Positions 10,045 through 20,720 of a DNA stretch of 20,720 nucleotides are shown here, piece after piece. Every line of letters starts with the position of its first letter. Position 1 is the first letter of the stretch. This DNA comes from Clostridiales bacterium (GTDB taxonomy: Bacteria; Bacillota_A; Clostridia; Peptostreptococcales; Anaerovoracaceae). The stretch is taken from assembly GCA_015058265.1 (NCBI GenBank), contig SVCR01000002.1, positions 1 through 20,720 of the forward strand, written 5' to 3'. The notes below the pieces were generated by a model, which was not told where the DNA came from, ran no database searches, and saw only the letters and a program-made list of their open reading frames with translations. The position numbers and the translations under genes are program-made.

Positions 10045-13000
10045 TCACAGCAGGATCTCTATATCCCACTCACCGCTGTGCGGCCTTTCCATAACTCCGT
10101 TGAAGTTCTTGCCGTTTACCTTATAGACTGTTTCAGCCCCTGTTCTGAACTCTCCTGACTCAGAAACGACTTTAACATGCATGACAGCATCGCCTGTGTT
10201 GACGGTATATTTGAGGCTGTCTGTTCCCGGTCTCAGCAGCGGATCGAAGATCACTTGATCCGAACGCATATCCAATCCGAAATATTCATATACACCGAGG
10301 GTGAGCCATGAAGCAGTTCCCGACAGCATAGGTCCGATATTCTCACCGGTCTCACTGTTATTGTATTGCGTACAGAATCTCGGGTTGCCTCTCAAAACAA
10401 ACGGGTCCTCCATCGCTTTGTACGGAAGCGTCAGATCCATCATGAAGAAAGCGAGTTCTCTCAGATCCTCGGCAAGCTCCGGATCGCTGACATACTTAGC
10501 GGCTTTGACAGAAGCCACAGCGGCCATCATTGCCGCATGCTTGAATACACCGCAGTTCTCCCTGTCTCCCGGGAAATAGAGTGCCGTGCCTGTCGCGACT
10601 CCGAGCTTGTCAAAGTCGACAAGAGTACAGAGCTTGAGTCCTGCATCAGTTCTGAGATACTTATTGACTGTATCCAGCATTACGCGGATCTGATCCTCAG
10701 TTGCTGTATCCGACAGCACTGACCAGCTGTATGAATTGAGGAAATAGCATCCGTCGATGTCCGGATCGAGCGACAGACCGTCCCCGCCTGCTCCCAGATA
10801 TGTATATTCCCTGCCGTCGTTGATGAGGCAGCGAGCGTAGAAATCTCCCTTCCATGCAGATCCTCTGACTTTGGCTCTGACGTCCTCTGCCATCTCCAGG
10901 GCAAAGCTTTCAGTCTCTTCATCGCCGATCATACCGGCCAGCGCAGCAGTCTCATCTGCCGCTATGATAAGCAGGAAAGCGTTCATCACGCTCTCGCACA
11001 GCTCGTTATCGAATGGCACACCGTATTCCTGCCCTCTGTCTCTAAGCTGCTTCAGATACAGTTCTTCTTTCTCCGGTCCCTGCATCACACCATTATCGAG
11101 TCTGAGAGTATCATTCCAATCTGCTTTGTCGAGCAGAGGCAATCCGTGCTTGCCGACAGAGATCCTGCCGCTGTAGGTCAATATCGCCTTGATCGTATCC
11201 CACAGACTTCTTCTTTCAACGACATGCTCAGGCTTATCGTTTTGGCTGTTCTGATCACCCGATTCTTTTCTTACAGTATTATGCAGGCTTGCTATCTCGA
11301 ATTCCTGTTTGAGGAAATCGACATCGCCTGTCAATCTTACATATCTTCCCACAGCCTGAAGCAGCCAGAGCTGGTCATCAGAACAGTCTCCCGGCTCTTT
11401 GCCTCTGAATGTGAAATTGTGATTGGCATATCCCATCTTCCATACGTGCTCTACCCACGTGCCGATCAGCTCACGAACGAGATCCGCCTGACCGTTGGCG
11501 CACATATAGTACATGGAAGCGAAAATATCCTGGATCTCACGGAACCCTGTCTCTCTGTAAGACTTCTTAGTCCACGCGAAGGCTCTCGACACGTATGTCT
11601 GATACAGCACCTGGAACGGCAGATTTCTGGCCGTGTATGCATTGAATTCCTCATCTTCCGTCTCAGGGATCAGATAGGAAGAATACTTGTCGAACGAAGA
11701 GTCTATGCAGTCCAGAACATTACCGAGATATTCCGGATCACAGCATTTAGTGAACAGCCTGCTTACAGCACCGGCTGCGTCAATAGTTATATCATGCTCT
11801 GCATTGCACATACCTGCAAGAGAATCGATCACGACCTCTTCTCCGTCCGGAAGCTCGAATGACTTTGCCATTGCGAAGAAGGACGCCATTTTGCGCTGCA
11901 GTTCATTGGAGAGATGCGCGCCGTATTCAGGATGCTCGAGAGTTCCGTTTCCTATGAACTCCGTCCGGCCTGAACAGAATTCGTCCATCGGCTCACCGTT
12001 GCATACCAGCATTGCGAATCTCTTCTTCATGTTGAGATCAGCCGGTTTGGCATTGAGTGTGACCGCTGTCGCCCTGCCTTCGCTGTCGCGCATCAGGGCA
12101 CTTTCCACAACTATGTTGGTAAAGACAATATCCTGAGCGAGCTTGTCCGCATCATTTATGGCAAACACTCCCGTCGCTGCCAGCCTGAGGCTGCGGTCAC
12201 GTCCCGAAGCGTTGCGGATACGGATCCTCTGCGCCTCGACTGCATCCGGGAGTCCGTCCTCCTGAGGCAGGAGGAATATAGTCCTCGATATCTCAAGGCC
12301 GTCATCAGTGCTGTATGTGATGACAGTCTTGTTCTGAGAATGACAGCAGACCGCACTCTTGACGTTAGTGTGGATATCCGCTGAATAGAATATCTGCCTG
12401 CCCTCTTCGTAAAGATAGAACTGCCTGTTAGCAGGCTCTCCGTTTTCTTCCGCATTAACGGTATAACGAGTAGCCAGCACCTGATCGCCTCCTGCTGCCC
12501 TGAAGGAACCGCGTCCCAGCGCATCAGTAACACTCTTAGGCGTTGTGCAAAGCGGGTATGGATATCCCGCTCTGTCTCCGAGGAGGAGATTGACAGGATA
12601 ATGAGTGCCTATCTGTCTGGATCTGAAATCCAGTATCAGCTCTCCCCTGCTGTTGATATGTCCGCAGCTTTCCGCAAGCCTGTTCTCAGCCTCAGATATG
12701 AGTCTGCATATTTCCTGCGGCAGCTCGGCTGCCGCGATCCTTCTTGCATCTCCGTCTGTGTCTGCTGTTTCCCATGCAGCCTTCACAGATGCCGTCATTT
12801 CTCTATTTGATGAAATAAGCAATTTCCGGCTGTCACCTGATCCTGTCACCAGGAGGCTGCCCTTTGCTCCGGATGCAAACGCGCAGAACGCAGGAACATT
12901 GAGCAGCTCTGCGCATATCGGCATATGCATGCCAAGTCCGCTTATGCCCATTACTCTTGTACGGGCCGCATCAAGAAAAGCTGCATCAGTACATCCGGCG

Positions 13001-13086
13001 ATATCGATGCCGGAAAATGCAGCCGCCAATGCTTCTTCAGGTGTGACATTCAGCTGTCTTGCGGTTTCCTGTTTGAATATGTCCAT
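10045..13086 (-). CDS. Large GH94-like glycoside phosphorylase (GH36-type fold)
   Basis: A 1013-residue cytosolic enzyme (no signal peptide). The (alpha/alpha)6 catalytic part carries the GH94 signatures CSDDQLWLL (568-576) and KADWNDTL (654-661), where the Asp residues of DWND include the expected general acid, and near the end NNSETGENIGPMLSGTASW. The beta-sandwich part lies at about 145-450. Residues 1-140 form an extra helical region I do not recognise, and the protein is longer than cellobiose phosphorylases (about 800 residues). Known members cleave beta-linked gluco-oligosaccharides with phosphate to give sugar 1-phosphates; the substrate here is open, and the common N-terminal substrate motifs are absent. 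Start ATG 13084-13086 has GGGAG close by. It is the third gene after the transglutaminase-like protein and D-lyxose isomerase genes. Confidence 0.78.
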   Translation of the reverse strand: MDIFKQETARQLNVTPEEALAAAFSGIDIAGCTDAAFLDAARTRVMGISGLGMHMPICAELLNVPAFCAFASGAKGSLLVTGSGDSRKLLISSNREMTASVKAAWETADTDGDARRIAAAELPQEICRLISEAENRLAESCGHINSRGELILDFRSRQIGTHYPVNLLLGDRAGYPYPLCTTPKSVTDALGRGSFRAAGGDQVLATRYTVNAEENGEPANRQFYLYEEGRQIFYSADIHTNVKSAVCCHSQNKTVITYSTDDGLEISRTIFLLPQEDGLPDAVEAQRIRIRNASGRDRSLRLAATGVFAINDADKLAQDIVFTNIVVESALMRDSEGRATAVTLNAKPADLNMKKRFAMLVCNGEPMDEFCSGRTEFIGNGTLEHPEYGAHLSNELQRKMASFFAMAKSFELPDGEEVVIDSLAGMCNAEHDITIDAAGAVSRLFTKCCDPEYLGNVLDCIDSSFDKYSSYLIPETEDEEFNAYTARNLPFQVLYQTYVSRAFAWTKKSYRETGFREIQDIFASMYYMCANGQADLVRELIGTWVEHVWKMGYANHNFTFRGKEPGDCSDDQLWLLQAVGRYVRLTGDVDFLKQEFEIASLHNTVRKESGDQNSQNDKPEHVVERRSLWDTIKAILTYSGRISVGKHGLPLLDKADWNDTLRLDNGVMQGPEKEELYLKQLRDRGQEYGVPFDNELCESVMNAFLLIIAADETAALAGMIGDEETESFALEMAEDVRAKVRGSAWKGDFYARCLINDGREYTYLGAGGDGLSLDPDIDGCYFLNSYSWSVLSDTATEDQIRVMLDTVNKYLRTDAGLKLCTLVDFDKLGVATGTALYFPGDRENCGVFKHAAMMAAVASVKAAKYVSDPELAEDLRELAFFMMDLTLPYKAMEDPFVLRGNPRFCTQYNNSETGENIGPMLSGTASWLTLGVYEYFGLDMRSDQVIFDPLLRPGTDSLKYTVNTGDAVMHVKVVSESGEFRTGAETVYKVNGKNFNGVMERPHSGEWDIEILL

Positions 13087-13169: not shown

Positions 13170-13850
13170 CTATTCTGCGGGAGGATATTCGAAGCAAAGC
13201 AGCCTGTACGGCGGCTCATCCTCTTCTATCTCCGGAAATCTGTATACAGGCTCATAGAATCTGTTGTCTGTATTATCATCATTGCACTGCGATACCTCTC
13301 CTATGAGTATGCTTCCCGAACCCGGAACAGCATGGAACTCATGGTACTGATGAGGCCACAGAGTCAGGCTTTGCCCGGGCTCCAGTCTGACCTCGGTACC
13401 TGCGGGCACATAGTATGAGCGCCCGTCCGAATTTACGAGAACATCGGTATCAGCCAGGCCGCCGTTTCCGTCGTCATTATAGACCTGAATGAGCAATATC
13501 CCGCCGCCTCTGTTGATGATATCTTCAGATTTGACGAAGTGAAAATGCATCGGGGATATCATATCGTCCCTGATGAAAAGCAGCTTCTCGGCGTAGGTCT
13601 TCTTGTAACGCGGATCATTTTGATTTCCGTTGCGCAAAGTGATAAGTCCCATGCCGACCTTGTTAAAATCACCAAGACCGTAGTCTGTTATATCCCATCC
13701 GAGCATATTGTCACGGATCTCGTCGTATTCGTGTCCTTTGCTCTTCCAGTCTTCCGGAGTCCAATCGCAGAAAGGAGGCAGGCTGAAACCTGTCTCCCTG
13801 ATAAGCTCCTCCATCTCGCGTATAACGCTGTTGATTTCTGAACGCTTCAT
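13170..13850 (-). CDS. D-lyxose isomerase (D-lyxose ketol-isomerase)
   Basis: A cytosolic metal-dependent cupin that interconverts D-lyxose and D-xylulose; family members often also act on D-mannose/D-fructose. The 226-residue length fits the family. Diagnostic features: LPPFCDWTPEDW (24-35), GMGLITLRNG (66-75), the metal-site block SPMHFHFVKSEDIINRGGG (99-117) with His102, His104 and Glu109 as likely ligands, a later His in WPHQYHEFH (165-173), and the ending GEVSQCNDDNTDNRFYEP (184-201). Start ATG 13848-13850 is preceded by AGGAG at eight bases. It follows the secreted protein gene by 18 bases and precedes the phosphorylase by 83, pointing to one sugar-use transcript. Mannose as the true substrate is equally possible. 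Confidence 0.88.
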   Translation of the reverse strand: MKRSEINSVIREMEELIRETGFSLPPFCDWTPEDWKSKGHEYDEIRDNMLGWDITDYGLGDFNKVGMGLITLRNGNQNDPRYKKTYAEKLLFIRDDMISPMHFHFVKSEDIINRGGGILLIQVYNDDGNGGLADTDVLVNSDGRSYYVPAGTEVRLEPGQSLTLWPHQYHEFHAVPGSGSILIGEVSQCNDDNTDNRFYEPVYRFPEIEEDEPPYRLLCFEYPPAE

Positions 13851-13868: not shown

Positions 13869-15860
13869 TTACTTAGTCCTCACGCGCTTCGCTGATGACC
13901 AGTCAGAATAGTATGTCTTGCCTTTCACTGTCATATACGTGCGGACACGTACATAGTATTTCTTTCCCGATTTCAAACCGGTGATCTTCTTAGAAGTCTT
14001 CGTGTAGCCCTTGATCTTGACTGACTTCTTCCCCTTGCTGAAATTCTTATTAAGAGCACACTGCACCTGATATCCGGTGATGCGTGATGATGACATCTTA
14101 GTCGCTACGCGCTTCCATTTTATCGTGAAGCCCTTCTTCTTTCCGGTCAGCTTGCGGACCTTGCTCTTCTTAGGAAGGATCTTGAATGTACAGGTCCTGC
14201 TTGACCCTTCGAAATCACCGATACCTGTTATCTTGACGGTCGCTTTGCCTACATCGACATTGTTGCTGATGCTGAACTCGTAATCAACACCCTTCTCCAG
14301 TTTATAACCCCCGATCGACAGCACCGGTTCGCACTTCCTTGCTTTGCCCGTCCATGTCTTCGAGCTGAGTCCCGAGACCTCGGTAGTATAAACAACTCTC
14401 TCAGCGATACCACACTTAGTACAGTAATGTTTCACTACCGAATAGCCAGACAATGCCGGCCCGAGAGTCCATACAGGCGAAGTGAAGCTGTGAACATGCT
14501 CATCGTCTGTATACGTCTCAGACGACACATAGTCTGAGCTGGAAATAGCCACATCGGAGGATGTATACAGATCATACATATCAGCATAATACTTATATAC
14601 TAAAGATGTGAGTGCTTGCCTGAATGTATAGCTGTCACCGGAGCGTGAGCTATATCCTTTAAGGAACAGCTTGTCGGGAGATCCGATCGTACCACTATCA
14701 CAGTTGGTGACATCGACGAGGTAATTATTGCCGTTCTCCATATGCATGATATTCCACATATGCGGTCCGCCGGACATCGTGCCCCATGCCGTCCTGCATT
14801 CCAGTTCACTGCTTCTGAATTCGGTCAGATCGCATAACAGCTGAAATGCCTTAGAGTAACCCTCGCACGTCACTCTCGTTAAAGGATCACCGTCAAACAC
14901 ATATATCAGCTGCCATGGATCGCCGTAGTCATCGTTAGGAGATGCATTGCGATTGTATGATGTCATCTGGCATATCGCTTTGCGGTATTCCTGCAGCTTG
15001 ATGTAGTCGCTCTTATCTTCATTCACAATGACGATAGCCGCGGCATTACTGGCGGAATCAGTCGCAAGCCGCGCCTTGTCAGTATCCACACGATACGTAT
15101 GAGTATTGCCTGATGCACTGTAATCTGACGATACAGGCATATAGAACTCAATGACCGGGTGCTCGAACTCAGTGTAGTCAAAGTTGATCCATGTTCCATT
15201 CTTATCGGTCCTTATTTTATTGGCAACCGAGTTAAAGGTCAGCGCCGTCTTGTCATACCAGTACAATTCATAAGGGCAGTCGACCATAAGAGCGTCCAGG
15301 ATCAATGAGCTGTCGAAGTTCAGTACATCCTCAAGATATTTCCTCTTTGCCTCAGTGGAGATCCCTCCATTCGATACAGTCGAACTGAGCCCGAGATCGG
15401 ATGCGTAGCGCAGAGTATTGCTTTTATTCAGGCCCTCTATCGGGACCTGTATTTCCGTCGACGATCTCTTTCCGGCAGCTATCTTCTGTATTTCTGCCTT
15501 GAGTCCGTCATAAATGATCTTGTTGTTGCCTGTAAGCCTTGCTCCGGCAGCTTTGCGCGGTCCGGAGCGCTTTGCGTCCTGCTGATCTGAACCTGCCGGG
15601 TCATGTATCTCCGTACCGGCCTCTTCGGCTGCGAGATTCTCCACATACTGAGTCAGGAGCTCATCATTGTCAGGAATACCGTCTGTTGATACCTCGATCT
15701 CTTCCTGCAGCGGATCCTCAACGAGCTCTCCTTCATCCGCAGCAACAGTCTGAGGTTCCGCCTCTTCGGCTGCAAACGAAACGACCGGCGCAGCAGCAAC
15801 GGCTGCCGCGAGCGTAAGGCATAGTATCAAGCTGCTAAACTTTCTTAACAACATCTTCAT
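13869..15860 (-). CDS. Secreted transglutaminase-like protein with Ig-like and FN3-like modules
   Basis: A 663-residue exported protein. The N-terminus is a Sec signal peptide (MKMLLRK, hydrophobic core, likely cut after SFA near 30), then an acidic linker to about 105. The transglutaminase/protease-like domain spans about 110-430 with a Cys-His-Asp triad: TCEGYSKAFQLLCD (Cys332), PHMWNIM (His367) and LVDVTNCD (Asp383). A small module with CTKCG (480-484) follows, then an Ig-like surface repeat (about 495-562, GGYKLEKGVDYEFSISNNVDVGKATVKITGIGDFEG) and a Lys-rich FN3-like domain (565-663). It lacks an LPXTG or membrane anchor, so it may be released or bind the wall through its basic C-terminus. 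A GGGAG site could serve ATG 15858-15860 or, better spaced, ATG 15852-15854. It leads the cluster with D-lyxose isomerase. Substrate unknown. Confidence 0.85.
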   Translation of the reverse strand: MKMLLRKFSSLILCLTLAAAVAAAPVVSFAAEEAEPQTVAADEGELVEDPLQEEIEVSTDGIPDNDELLTQYVENLAAEEAGTEIHDPAGSDQQDAKRSGPRKAAGARLTGNNKIIYDGLKAEIQKIAAGKRSSTEIQVPIEGLNKSNTLRYASDLGLSSTVSNGGISTEAKRKYLEDVLNFDSSLILDALMVDCPYELYWYDKTALTFNSVANKIRTDKNGTWINFDYTEFEHPVIEFYMPVSSDYSASGNTHTYRVDTDKARLATDSASNAAAIVIVNEDKSDYIKLQEYRKAICQMTSYNRNASPNDDYGDPWQLIYVFDGDPLTRVTCEGYSKAFQLLCDLTEFRSSELECRTAWGTMSGGPHMWNIMHMENGNNYLVDVTNCDSGTIGSPDKLFLKGYSSRSGDSYTFRQALTSLVYKYYADMYDLYTSSDVAISSSDYVSSETYTDDEHVHSFTSPVWTLGPALSGYSVVKHYCTKCGIAERVVYTTEVSGLSSKTWTGKARKCEPVLSIGGYKLEKGVDYEFSISNNVDVGKATVKITGIGDFEGSSRTCTFKILPKKSKVRKLTGKKKGFTIKWKRVATKMSSSRITGYQVQCALNKNFSKGKKSVKIKGYTKTSKKITGLKSGKKYYVRVRTYMTVKGKTYYSDWSSAKRVRTK

Positions 15861-16567: not shown

Positions 16568-17872
16568 CTATCCCACTTTGTTCAGAGCCTGATCGAGATC
16601 GGCGATAATATCATCTGCGTTCTCAAGTCCTACTGACAGCCGGATCAGACCCGGATCGATACCGGCCGCAAGCTGAGCCTCTTCAGAGAGCTGTCTGTGG
16701 GTCGTGCTCGCCGGATGAAGTACACTGGTGTGGATATCCCCAACGTGAACGACGATACTGCAGAGCTCAAGATTCTCCAGGAACTTCTCTCCTGCTTCTC
16801 TGCCGCCCTTGACACCGAAGCTCATTACAGCTCCTGCTCCTCTCGGCAGATATTTCTGCGCCATCTCATAATACTTGTCTCCCTTGCGTCCCGGATAGAT
16901 GATCCAGTCGACCATCGGATGGTCAGCAAGGAAGTCAGCGATCTTGACAGCGTTCTTGACGTGGCGCTCCATGCGGACATCAAGAGTCTGCAGGCCCTGA
17001 TGTGTGAGGTATGCATTCATCGGTGCCATAGTGCAGCCGAGGTCTCTGACGAGAACTGCTTTGAGGCGTGTGCAGAATGCCGCCTTTCCGAACTTCTCAT
17101 AGAAGTTGAGTCCGTGATAGCTCTCATCCGGAGCTGCCATGCTCGGGAACTTGAGGTTTCCTTCATCATCCTTGACAGACCAGTCAAAGTTGCCGCCCTC
17201 TATAACACAGCCTCCGATGCTGGTCCCGTGGCCGTCTGCGAACTTAGTCGTCGAGTGAGTCACGATATTAGCGCCATACTCGATAGGTCTGCAAAGTGCA
17301 GGTGTAGCAAGTGTATTGTCTACGATGAACGGGACCTTCATCTGTCTCGCTGCTTCAGCGAATTTCTCGAGGTCGAGCACGCTGAGTGCAGGATTGCCCA
17401 GAGTCTCACCGAACAGAGCCTTAGTATTAGGCTTGCACAGAGCAACTATATCCTCAACAGGCATATCCTGATCGAAGAAATCCACTTCGATCCCCAGCTT
17501 GCGAAGTGTAACGTTGAACAGGTTGTGTGTTCCGCCGTAGATATTCGTTCCGCTCAGGACGTGATCTCCGGCCTCACATATATTGAGTATGGAAATAAGC
17601 GTCGCCGCCTGTCCGGATGAAGTTGCCATGCCGGCTGTGCCGCCTTCGAGCAAAGCCATTTTCTGCTCCAGCTTGTCTACTGTAGGGCTGCCCAGTCTCG
17701 CGTACATAGGATTAGGGCTGTCCAGATCGAAGAGCTCGGCCACATCATGCGCGTTATAGTATCTGTAGGTCGTGCTCTGGATGATCGGGAGGTTCTGCGG
17801 CTCGGCACTGCCGGCCTTATATGCTCCGTGTACACATCTGGTCTCAAAGTTCATGTCCTTCATCTCTTTCAT
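16568..17872 (-). CDS. metY: O-acetylhomoserine sulfhydrylase (aminocarboxypropyltransferase), MetY type
   Basis: A cytosolic PLP enzyme that makes homocysteine from O-acetylhomoserine and sulfide, a direct route to methionine. The 434-residue length fits MetY better than the shorter gamma-lyase group. Motifs: FETRCVHGAY (9-18), PNPMYARLGSPTVDKLE (53-69), SSGQAATL (85-92), VDNTLATP (184-191, with PLP-contacting Asp185) and the PLP lysine Lys210 in HSTTKFADGHG, then RLSVGLENADDIIADLDQAL at the end. Start ATG 17870-17872 has AAGGAG nine bases upstream. It lies 61 bases after the activase gene without an obvious terminator and is followed almost without gap by the cysteine-rich protein. A gamma-lyase activity cannot be excluded. 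Confidence 0.92.
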   Translation of the reverse strand: MKEMKDMNFETRCVHGAYKAGSAEPQNLPIIQSTTYRYYNAHDVAELFDLDSPNPMYARLGSPTVDKLEQKMALLEGGTAGMATSSGQAATLISILNICEAGDHVLSGTNIYGGTHNLFNVTLRKLGIEVDFFDQDMPVEDIVALCKPNTKALFGETLGNPALSVLDLEKFAEAARQMKVPFIVDNTLATPALCRPIEYGANIVTHSTTKFADGHGTSIGGCVIEGGNFDWSVKDDEGNLKFPSMAAPDESYHGLNFYEKFGKAAFCTRLKAVLVRDLGCTMAPMNAYLTHQGLQTLDVRMERHVKNAVKIADFLADHPMVDWIIYPGRKGDKYYEMAQKYLPRGAGAVMSFGVKGGREAGEKFLENLELCSIVVHVGDIHTSVLHPASTTHRQLSEEAQLAAGIDPGLIRLSVGLENADDIIADLDQALNKVG

Positions 17873-17933: not shown

Positions 17934-18824
17934 TTATCTGAAATCCGCGATACGGACTCCCTGGTCCGCCGCGATCCTTCTGAGGTGATCCATCTGTTCC
18001 CTTGACGGGGTGAAGAATTCCGGGTGATCATATGAGATCCCGAGAGCCTCATATTTTATCTTTCCGTATCTGTGATAAGGCAGCAGCTCCATCGCAGCCT
18101 GCGGAACGTTGTCATGCACGTAGGCCGCGGATGAACGGATATTGTCCTCATCATCATTGACGCCGCCTATCACCGGTATCCTGATAACGATCTCCGCGTC
18201 CAGATCTGCCAGCTTGCGGATGTTATCCAGTATCCTGTCATTGCGTACGCCTGTGTAGAACTCATGCCTGTCAGGATCCATCATCTTGAGATCCATGAAT
18301 ATCATATCCATACGCTCAAGCGACGGTCTCACTCTGTCAAAGTCAAAGTATCCGCAGCTCTCTATATCCATGCTGTATCCGAGATCATAGATCTGTCCGG
18401 AAAGATAGTCGAGCAGCTCAGGCTGGGAAGCAGCTTCGCCGCCTGAGAAAGTTATGCCCCCTCCGCTGTATGCGTAGAACAGCCTGTGTTTGTGGATCTC
18501 TCTGATGATATCATCGGCGTCCCTGTAGGTCACCATGAAGGCTCTTGATCCTTCCGGGCATGCCTCGACACATCTTCCGCATGCTATGCAGTCCGCGCGG
18601 CGTTTATTCATATCTATATCTATCCCCTGAGGGCATGCAGATACGCATGAACCGCAGCCTATGCATTTGCGCTGATACCAGCCGACCTTCTCTTCCGGGG
18701 TAAATCCTTCCGGATTCGAGCACCACTTGCATCTGAGAGGGCATCCGGCCATGAATATCGTCGTCCTGATACCATCCCCGTCATTGACCGAGAACGGCTG
18801 CAGCTGCATTATATATCCTTTCAT
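17934..18824 (-). CDS. Glycyl radical enzyme activating protein (radical SAM)
   Basis: Uses S-adenosylmethionine and a [4Fe-4S] cluster to install the glycyl radical on its partner enzyme. The 296-residue protein has the radical SAM motif CPLRCKWC (Cys28, Cys32, Cys35), two ferredoxin-type cluster motifs CIGCGSCVSACP (54-65) and CIACGRCVEACP (79-90), and the SAM-binding SGGE (127-130). The two extra clusters place it with activases of non-PFL glycyl radical enzymes rather than with the short PFL activase. Its ATG overlaps the stop of the glycyl radical enzyme gene (ATGA), with GAGGAG five bases upstream of the ATG inside that gene, so both are coupled. This makes the partnership clear. Confidence 0.95.
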   Translation of the reverse strand: MKGYIMQLQPFSVNDGDGIRTTIFMAGCPLRCKWCSNPEGFTPEEKVGWYQRKCIGCGSCVSACPQGIDIDMNKRRADCIACGRCVEACPEGSRAFMVTYRDADDIIREIHKHRLFYAYSGGGITFSGGEAASQPELLDYLSGQIYDLGYSMDIESCGYFDFDRVRPSLERMDMIFMDLKMMDPDRHEFYTGVRNDRILDNIRKLADLDAEIVIRIPVIGGVNDDEDNIRSSAAYVHDNVPQAAMELLPYHRYGKIKYEALGISYDHPEFFTPSREQMDHLRRIAADQGVRIADFR

Positions 18825-20720
18825 CAGAACTCCTCATGGGCGTTTCTCGCCATGATCGAATCCTGCATTTCTTTGGAGAGATTGGTGAACTGAGCGCTGT
18901 ATCCGGCAACTCTGACCAGCAGGCTGCGGTATTTGTCAGGATTAGCCTGCGCGTCCTTCAGGACCTCGTTGGATATAGTATTGAATTGAACGTGGAAGCC
19001 GCCAAGCGCAAAGTAGCTCTGGAGCATTGCTCCGAGATTGGCCCTGCCTCGTTTAGTCGCAACGAGATCGTGGTTGAGTCTCAGGTTCAGCAGGGTCCCG
19101 CCACTGTGGATATCGTGATTCATCTTAGCCGCGCTGCGGAGCGCCGCAAGGCAGGTCGAAGTATCGCTGCCTGTGTATGGCGAAACTCCTTCGTTGATCG
19201 GGTCGCATGCGTGTCTTCCCTCCGGAGTAGCTCCGAGGACTTTGCCCGTAGGAAGATAATTCGATATGCCCATGAACGCGGTGACAAAGTGATTGCCGTA
19301 GAGATCGTCATACTGCGTCACCTCGCTGTAGAAGAAGTCAGCAAGTTCTCTGGCGATCGAATCGACATAATCTATGTCATTGCCGTATTTAGGGCAGGCG
19401 AGCGCCCTCTCTCTGAGCTCCTCATAGCCTTCCCAGTTATTGTCTATAGCATCGATCAGCTCGGCCATCGTGGTCGTTCCGTCCTCAAATACGAGCTTCT
19501 TGATAACAGCCAGCGAGTTTGCCGTGACTGAAAGTCCTACGCCTGTGAAGACCGGCCCGATATTATACTTAGCTCCTCCATCGACAAGATCCCGGCCGTT
19601 CTTCATGCAGTATTCATTGCATGCCGACATATAAGGTCTGTGGCCTATCTCCTTATGTATCTCCTGAGCTGTGATCAGGCTGATGACGCCGTGCCTGACG
19701 AGATATCTGAACTGTTTCTTCCAGGCTTCTATGACCTCATCCAGCGACGCGAACGTCTTAGGATCCTTCTCAGGCAAAGCTACCTGCTCTCCGGACAGAC
19801 GGCTGCAGCCTCTGTTCAGAGCGAATTCCAGTGCCGCCGCGAAGCTGATGCTGGCAGCCGATGTCCATTCGAAAGTCTTTCTCGAATGAGGGACAACACA
19901 GCCGCAGTTGTTCCAGTCGCGCGCATCTTCCGGTTTGTAGCCGAGGTTGGACAGCATCTGGTATCCTGTTCTGTCTCCGTGTATAGCCGGGAAGCCGCAT
20001 CCTGTCGATACGAGTTCGGTCACCGCTTCGAGGAATTCAGGCGGGCAGTCAGGATGTATCCTGCAGCTGAGAGTCGGCTGATGGGTCATGCACTCCCTTG
20101 TCGCCTGGATAGCCATATACGAAATAGTGTTGGTAGCATCTGATCCGTCGACCTTGGTCCCTCCGACTGTCAGATTCTCGAAATTAGTATAGCCCGCGAA
20201 GAAGCTGGCTGTATTCTTGGAAATAGTCCATGCCCACTCGCTGTACTTGAGCCAGAGGCACTCGACCAGTTCAAGGGCGGAGTCATAGTCGATAACACCC
20301 TTCTCCTCGTCAGCTTTATAATACGGATACATATACTGATCGAATCTCCCCGGATTCCATGCCAGCGGATTCTCAGCTATGACACCGCCCAGCTGTACGA
20401 ACCATACGAACTGGACAGCCTCTCTGAATGACTTCGGCGGATTCTCAGGTACGACGGCGCAAACGCGGGATATCTCTTCCAGCTCTGCCTTCCTGGCCGG
20501 ATCCTTCTCGACTGCAGCCATCTCTGCCGCTTTGGCCGAATAGCGCCTGCCGAGAGTGATCATTCCGTCTGCTATGAGGATCATCGACTTGTAGAAGTCT
20601 ATCTTCTTCTTATCCTCAGCATTGGTCTCATCGAGAGTCTTGATATATGCCTCTGCCTCTGCACGGATCCCTCCGTACCCCTTAGGCAGCAGGACATCGA
20701 TATAGTCAGCCGATATCTCT
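18824..20720 (-). CDS. Glycyl radical enzyme of unassigned class, N-terminus beyond window
   Basis: About 631 residues of a pyruvate formate-lyase-like enzyme; the frame stays open to the right edge, so the apparent Met at 20584 is internal. Visible: WNPGRFDQYMYPYY near 20350-20310, HPDCPPEFLEAV, the active-site loop NNCGCVVPHSRKTFEW (19867-19908), and the C-terminal glycyl radical motif RVAGYSAQF with the radical Gly codon at 18902-18904. Well-known dehydratase and lyase classes (choline lyase, glycerol, propanediol and hydroxyproline dehydratases) carry G-C-x-E at the active-site loop, where Glu is the catalytic base. Here that residue is Val and the loop holds two cysteines spaced by one residue. 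The reaction is therefore uncertain. The activase follows with overlapping stop and start. Confidence 0.9.
   Translation of the reverse strand, partial: EISADYIDVLLPKGYGGIRAEAEAYIKTLDETNAEDKKKIDFYKSMILIADGMITLGRRYSAKAAEMAAVEKDPARKAELEEISRVCAVVPENPPKSFREAVQFVWFVQLGGVIAENPLAWNPGRFDQYMYPYYKADEEKGVIDYDSALELVECLWLKYSEWAWTISKNTASFFAGYTNFENLTVGGTKVDGSDATNTISYMAIQATRECMTHQPTLSCRIHPDCPPEFLEAVTELVSTGCGFPAIHGDRTGYQMLSNLGYKPEDARDWNNCGCVVPHSRKTFEWTSAASISFAAALEFALNRGCSRLSGEQVALPEKDPKTFASLDEVIEAWKKQFRYLVRHGVISLITAQEIHKEIGHRPYMSACNEYCMKNGRDLVDGGAKYNIGPVFTGVGLSVTANSLAVIKKLVFEDGTTTMAELIDAIDNNWEGYEELRERALACPKYGNDIDYVDSIARELADFFYSEVTQYDDLYGNHFVTAFMGISNYLPTGKVLGATPEGRHACDPINEGVSPYTGSDTSTCLAALRSAAKMNHDIHSGGTLLNLRLNHDLVATKRGRANLGAMLQSYFALGGFHVQFNTISNEVLKDAQANPDKYRSLLVRVAGYSAQFTNLSKEMQDSIMARNAHEEF

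Follow-up and report, generated by a model that had tools for sequence, protein, structure and literature searches.

Valine in place of the Cys-loop glutamate in an apparently uncharacterised glycyl radical enzyme class

Among the eliminases of the glycyl radical enzyme (GRE) superfamily, the glutamate two residues after the thiyl cysteine, the Glu of the Cys-X-Glu (CXE) motif, is thought to be essential. What, then, is the role of a GRE whose Cys loop reads Cys-Gly-Cys-Val-Val? Such a gene lies at one end of a 20,720-nucleotide stretch of contig SVCR01000002.1 from a Clostridiales bacterium (GCA_015058265.1), termed the window hereafter. Its reading frame of 1896 bases ends in a stop, has no internal stop, and covers 631 of about 790 residues, full-length relatives having 790 residues. 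Residues are numbered after the homologue P0001, in which residue n of the window corresponds to residue n+159. The features of the gene, all on the minus strand, are as follows.

18824..20719, minus strand: GRE gene truncated at its 5' end by the window edge, with domains PF02901 and PF01228
19892..19906, minus strand: Cys-loop motif Cys-Gly-Cys-Val-Val, P0001 residues 431-435
19904-19906, minus strand: extra Cys (C431), two residues before the thiyl Cys
19898-19900, minus strand: thiyl Cys (C433), by alignment
19892-19894, minus strand: Val (V435) replacing the CXE Glu, by alignment
20717..20719, minus strand: Glu codon (E160), the first codon read in the window, aligned with Asp216 of CutC and His160 of the trans-4-hydroxy-L-proline dehydratase HypD
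18902..18904, minus strand: glycyl radical Gly (G765) in RVAGYS, by sequence and alignment

The motif codons, TGC GGC TGT GTT GTC from 19906 down to 19892, are read directly in an unbroken frame, which bears out the original prediction of Cys-Gly-Cys-Val-Val without a frameshift. In Pfam, the protein scores 552 bits against the PFL-like profile and 107 bits against the Gly_radical profile. In HMMER alignments to CutC chains, the thiyl Cys corresponds to the second Cys of the motif and the CXE Glu to its second Val; the same loop reads G-C-V-E in the solved propanediol and glycerol dehydratases, in E. coli PflD and in a CutC. The CXE Glu is truly replaced.

The same motif is shared by almost all close relatives. 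WNNCGCVVP is found in 120 of 120 protein relatives listed (the best 120 of 5046), and of the 139 loci that reach at least 50% identity, the window included, 138 read CGCVVPH; the sole locus lacking it, L061, is a fragment that starts past the motif. Given this near-universal occurrence, CGCVV is no quirk, chance or sequencing error. The 139 loci, gathered from a scan of genome contigs (79 best loci kept) and from whole-genome searches, comprise 126 distinct sequences; because some genomes are represented twice, counts are made over clusters (63, formed at 85% identity) rather than over loci. Identity to P0001 falls to 52% among near-full-length members, and the next relatives lie near 40% or below. 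With one match counted per genome, 39 of the 247 genomes from one order and 41 of the 300 from one class carry the GRE.

Residue alignments cover 125 of the 139 loci (open reading frames (ORFs) of 780-859 residues, 113 distinct) and P0001, giving 126 full-length rows, and alignment A1 comprises 58 of 64 listed sequences. Thirty-one of the 43 positions examined are identical in every row, including S152, K153, W154, R155, E160, H372, N430, C431, C433, V435, H437 and G765. All 126 rows have C-V-V in place of CXE, the hallmark of GRE eliminases, and all possess the extra Cys C431, the RVxG[FYW] fingerprint and the mid-protein Cys. The radical Gly is likewise kept throughout, and no row shows the Ala, Ser or Thr that replaces it in the aminoacyl radical enzymes. 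Of the 15 GREs aligned as references, all but one carry Glu at the second position past the Cys (14 of 15); the exception, a pyruvate formate-lyase (PFL), carries Ser. The ratio of nonsynonymous to synonymous substitution rates (dN/dS) is 0.03-0.05 in the four of eight pairs where it could be computed, synonymous sites being saturated in the other four; the group is under purifying selection. With an intact thiyl Cys, radical Gly and activase in addition, the class is apparently catalytically competent.

In a tree of 52 rows, consisting of every second cluster representative (29), P0001 and 22 references, and holding no IslA, HplG or X-succinate synthase rows, the CGCVV group forms one clade with a support of 100/100. 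The clade is placed among the eliminases as the sister of CutC (100/94), and its descent therefore points to an eliminase lineage. Its members display the features of GREs, namely the PFL-like and C-terminal Gly_radical domains, the fingerprint, the mid-protein Cys and a nearby activase, and have the GRE fold in common with PFL and the X-succinate synthases. All scores lie under the cut-offs of the NCBIfam GRE equivalogs matched: for TIGR04394 (CutC), the best curated profile, 573 bits for the fragment and 746 bits for the full-length protein of Dethiosulfatibacter aminovorans (L048) against a cut-off of 1050; for NF043068 (HypD), 476 and 593 bits, respectively, against 1100; and for TIGR01255 (PFL), 123 bits against 994. 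The predicted separate class is thereby upheld, being monophyletic, below these cut-offs and devoid of the CXE Glu. Judged from sequence, it is almost certainly a widespread and apparently uncharacterised GRE class. No description of it was found in the open-access literature searched, including PMC8473560, PMC7077986, PMC11528403, PMC12358834 and PMC11574389; the search being limited to such literature, we do not claim that no earlier description is in print.

The fixed change from Glu to Val suggests a chemistry probably different from that of CutC. The original prediction held that loss of the Glu argues against the known eliminase reactions; the replacement itself stands, whereas the argument is weakened by the position beside CutC, which points to an eliminase lineage. 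Compared to CutC, the clade differs in the Val at the CXE Glu, Ser152 at the site of Tyr208, Glu at the site of Asp216, and the extra loop Cys. PMC8473560 treats CutC Asp216, HypD His160 and IslA Gln193 as one equivalent site, which in the clade is Glu (E160) in 126 of 126 rows. The 15 reference rows have H, R or D at position 160 and E or S at position 435, but never E160 nor V435. For HypD, PMC7077986 reports that His160 lies 2.5 Å from the CXE Glu (Glu436), that the radical forms next to nitrogen, and that Asp278 is essential and is the proposed base for the amine, rather than the CXE Glu. An eliminase acting beside nitrogen thus need not use the CXE Glu as its base. None of the HypD residues Asp278, Asp339, His160 and Glu436 is retained in the clade: no residue aligns with Asp278, its neighbour being Leu in all 126 rows, the Asp339 site is Q, S, N or A, and an acid occupies only one of these four acid-base positions. 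The site of HypD Tyr450 is Asn or Ser, and D149, D151 and D408 are further conserved acids. The N-methyl-cis-4-hydroxyproline dehydratases (8id1 and 8iof) share the fold at 39% and 33% identity, respectively, the comparison covering fold and overall identity. The lists of similar structures give no ground for excluding any family.

Our tentative preference, held with less than even confidence, is that the class sister to CutC consists of eliminases of amines or amino acids, an amine or amino acid being the favoured substrate. The activase would set the radical on G765, from which it would pass to C433; C433 would then abstract hydrogen from a small ammonium-bearing substrate, perhaps released in some lineages by neighbouring M20 amidohydrolases. 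E160 would hold the substrate nitrogen, the substrate radical forming beside it, and with no hydroxyl to deprotonate the CXE Glu would be dispensable. The amine proton would go to E160 as the beta substituent leaves, and the resulting imine or enamine might be passed on, genes for RidA and pyruvate:ferredoxin oxidoreductase (PFOR) following in some operons. Several points weigh against this proposal. M20 genes are not significantly more frequent near the GRE than far from it in the same loci (with one locus per cluster, about 18 of 485 near genes versus 2 of 110 far genes; Fisher p 0.56), and the M20 link is kept only as a lead. The PFOR and RidA cases all come from the class of genome G008 or from Sporomusa-type records, and many loci hold only a regulator, the GRE and the activase. 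Moreover, CutC carries an acid at the E160 site yet retains the CXE Glu.

A possible but less probable explanation is a conventional alcohol eliminase, of the CutC or diol-dehydratase type, whose catalytic carboxylate would be supplied by strand beta-1 (E160) rather than by the Cys loop (V435). The carboxylate may have been so relocated, since E160 is invariant at the CutC-Asp216 site and its HypD counterpart sits close to the CXE Glu. E160 and V435 are both fixed in the clade and both missing from the references, and the sister position to CutC would suit such an enzyme. However, other pocket residues, at the sites of CutC Tyr208 and HypD Tyr450, differ as well, and we therefore lean to the ammonium-bearing substrate over the moved carboxylate.

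More doubtful is a base-free carbon-skeleton or C-S chemistry, in which an amino acid or thioether would be rearranged, epimerised or cleaved by a radical route while C431 and C433 relay hydrogen. The Glu would be dispensable there and C431 is invariant; PFL, which uses two cysteines, resembles the clade in having no Glu two residues after the thiyl Cys, although its cysteines are adjacent (Cys-Cys) and those of the clade are spaced as C-G-C. The tree nevertheless places the clade in an eliminase lineage, and a role in replacing glutamate mutase is not supported by co-occurrence. A descendant of the eliminases devoid of Cys-loop acid-base catalysis, performing base-free isomerisation, epimerisation or C-S/C-N scission through a two-thiol Cys-Gly-Cys relay, appears unlikely. 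Of the predicted chemistry without a base, only the loss of the CXE Glu holds firm; complete loss of a base is less secure, as the invariant E160 may supply the carboxylate, and a base-free enzyme is not established.

It is quite improbable that the clade is a variant CutC still acting on choline or a close quaternary amine: CutC is the closest family by tree, profile and fold, and an acid occupies the Asp216 site, but the profile scores fall far below the CutC cut-off, the CXE Glu and the Tyr208 site are replaced, and no recurring cut-type cluster is found among the neighbours. A degenerate, inactive GRE is hardly credible, for although a residue essential in relatives is gone, two genomes (G719 and G1060) have a single stop inside the match and the gene is split over two frames in some loci, the low dN/dS, the 31 invariant positions, the universal radical Gly motif and the activase near most GREs all speak against decay.

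Two genes follow the GRE in the window.

17934..18824, minus strand: radical S-adenosylmethionine GRE-activating enzyme with ferredoxin-like 4Fe-4S domains (TIGR02494, 302 bits; cut-off 174)
16568..17872, minus strand: O-acetylhomoserine sulfhydrylase-type gene (TIGR01326, 566 bits; cut-off 495)

The activase gene overlaps the stop codon of the GRE by a single base, and the O-acetylhomoserine sulfhydrylase-type gene lies 61 bases downstream of it, its link to the GRE being putative. Within seven genes of the GRE, the activase is found in 59 of the 63 clusters. In the same range, regulators of the helix-turn-helix/cupin type occur in 28 clusters and those of the GntR/FCD type in 21; M20 genes of one cluster are present in 13, a Gate-domain membrane protein pair in 8, PFOR in 6, RidA in 4 and members of the enolase superfamily in 3. 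Within five genes, three M20 subfamilies occur in 19 of 63 clusters, and 30 of the 33 genes lie on the same strand as the GRE; among solved structures, carboxypeptidase G2 is the best relative of one of the M20 proteins. The enolase-superfamily neighbours pass the NCBIfam cut-off for o-succinylbenzoate synthase (345-360 bits versus 200.65), and the best solved relatives of one of them are N-acylamino acid racemases. In D. aminovorans, the genes ahead of the GRE encode a DcuC-family carrier, two enolase-superfamily proteins, an M20 protein and a CoA-transferase III; the last of these genes overlaps the GRE by four bases.

Among 127 activases beside the GRE, 30 are ORFs of at most 275 residues (e.g. 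L048:11905-12678, L021, L028 and L057). The CxxCxxCxxxC ferredoxin motif is present in 96 of the 127 and absent from 27 of the 30 short ones, with ORFs called mechanically; the domain for the auxiliary cluster thus appears variable within a single GRE class. GRE-activase pairs of about 90% identity (L001, L005, L008 and the window) are found in different settings, after ilvE, after aspartate kinase, or before the O-acetylhomoserine sulfhydrylase-type gene, as though the pair had moved as a cassette. A regulator-like protein of about 440-450 residues (family 146; L048, L157, L169, L178 and L180), with weak C-terminal Pfam helix-turn-helix matches, is divergent from the M20/transporter modules in six of six cases. 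Elsewhere in the window, 10045-13086 encodes a GH94-type phosphorylase-like protein of 1013 residues, adjoining a D-lyxose isomerase gene (13170-13850), and 13869-15860 an apparently secreted protein of 663 residues that bears a fibronectin type III domain at its C-terminus and weakly matches a transglutaminase-related lipoprotein.

Other substrate clues were considered and set aside. The idea of a B12-independent replacement of glutamate mutase came from L035, in which methylaspartate mutase S, L and E and methylaspartate ammonia-lyase lie downstream of the activase; genome co-occurrence does not support it. Of 247 genomes, 39 have the GRE, 33 the ammonia-lyase and 10 both; the ammonia-lyase is thus found in 10 of 39 GRE-positive genomes (29 lack it) and in 23 of 208 GRE-negative ones. 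The B12-dependent mutase is present in 12 of 51 GRE-positive genomes, including all 8 tested that have the ammonia-lyase. A sulfur or methionine link was dropped for too few cases: the O-acetylhomoserine sulfhydrylase-type gene of the window, its relative in L027, and two genes upstream in L025 that we took by eye to resemble mtnK and mtnA. The Mogibacterium-type neighbours, confirmed as ilvA and ilvE (L001) and aspartate kinase (L008), are uninformative, since they differ between GREs that are about 90% identical. No riboswitch or T-box that would name a ligand was found by the GRE in 14 sources searched with Rfam at gathering thresholds; a Clostridiales-1 RNA at L039:9337-9504 (107 bits against a gathering threshold of 48) immediately precedes the GRE, in this source only.

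Altogether, the clade keeps the rest of the radical machinery and fixes Val, which makes it a natural experiment on the role of the CXE Glu. It marks an unassigned anaerobic pathway and consists of oxygen-sensitive radical enzymes closely related to CutC, which releases trimethylamine from choline in the gut. The genes of this clade, although CutC is their best curated profile, are not to be read as trimethylamine producers.
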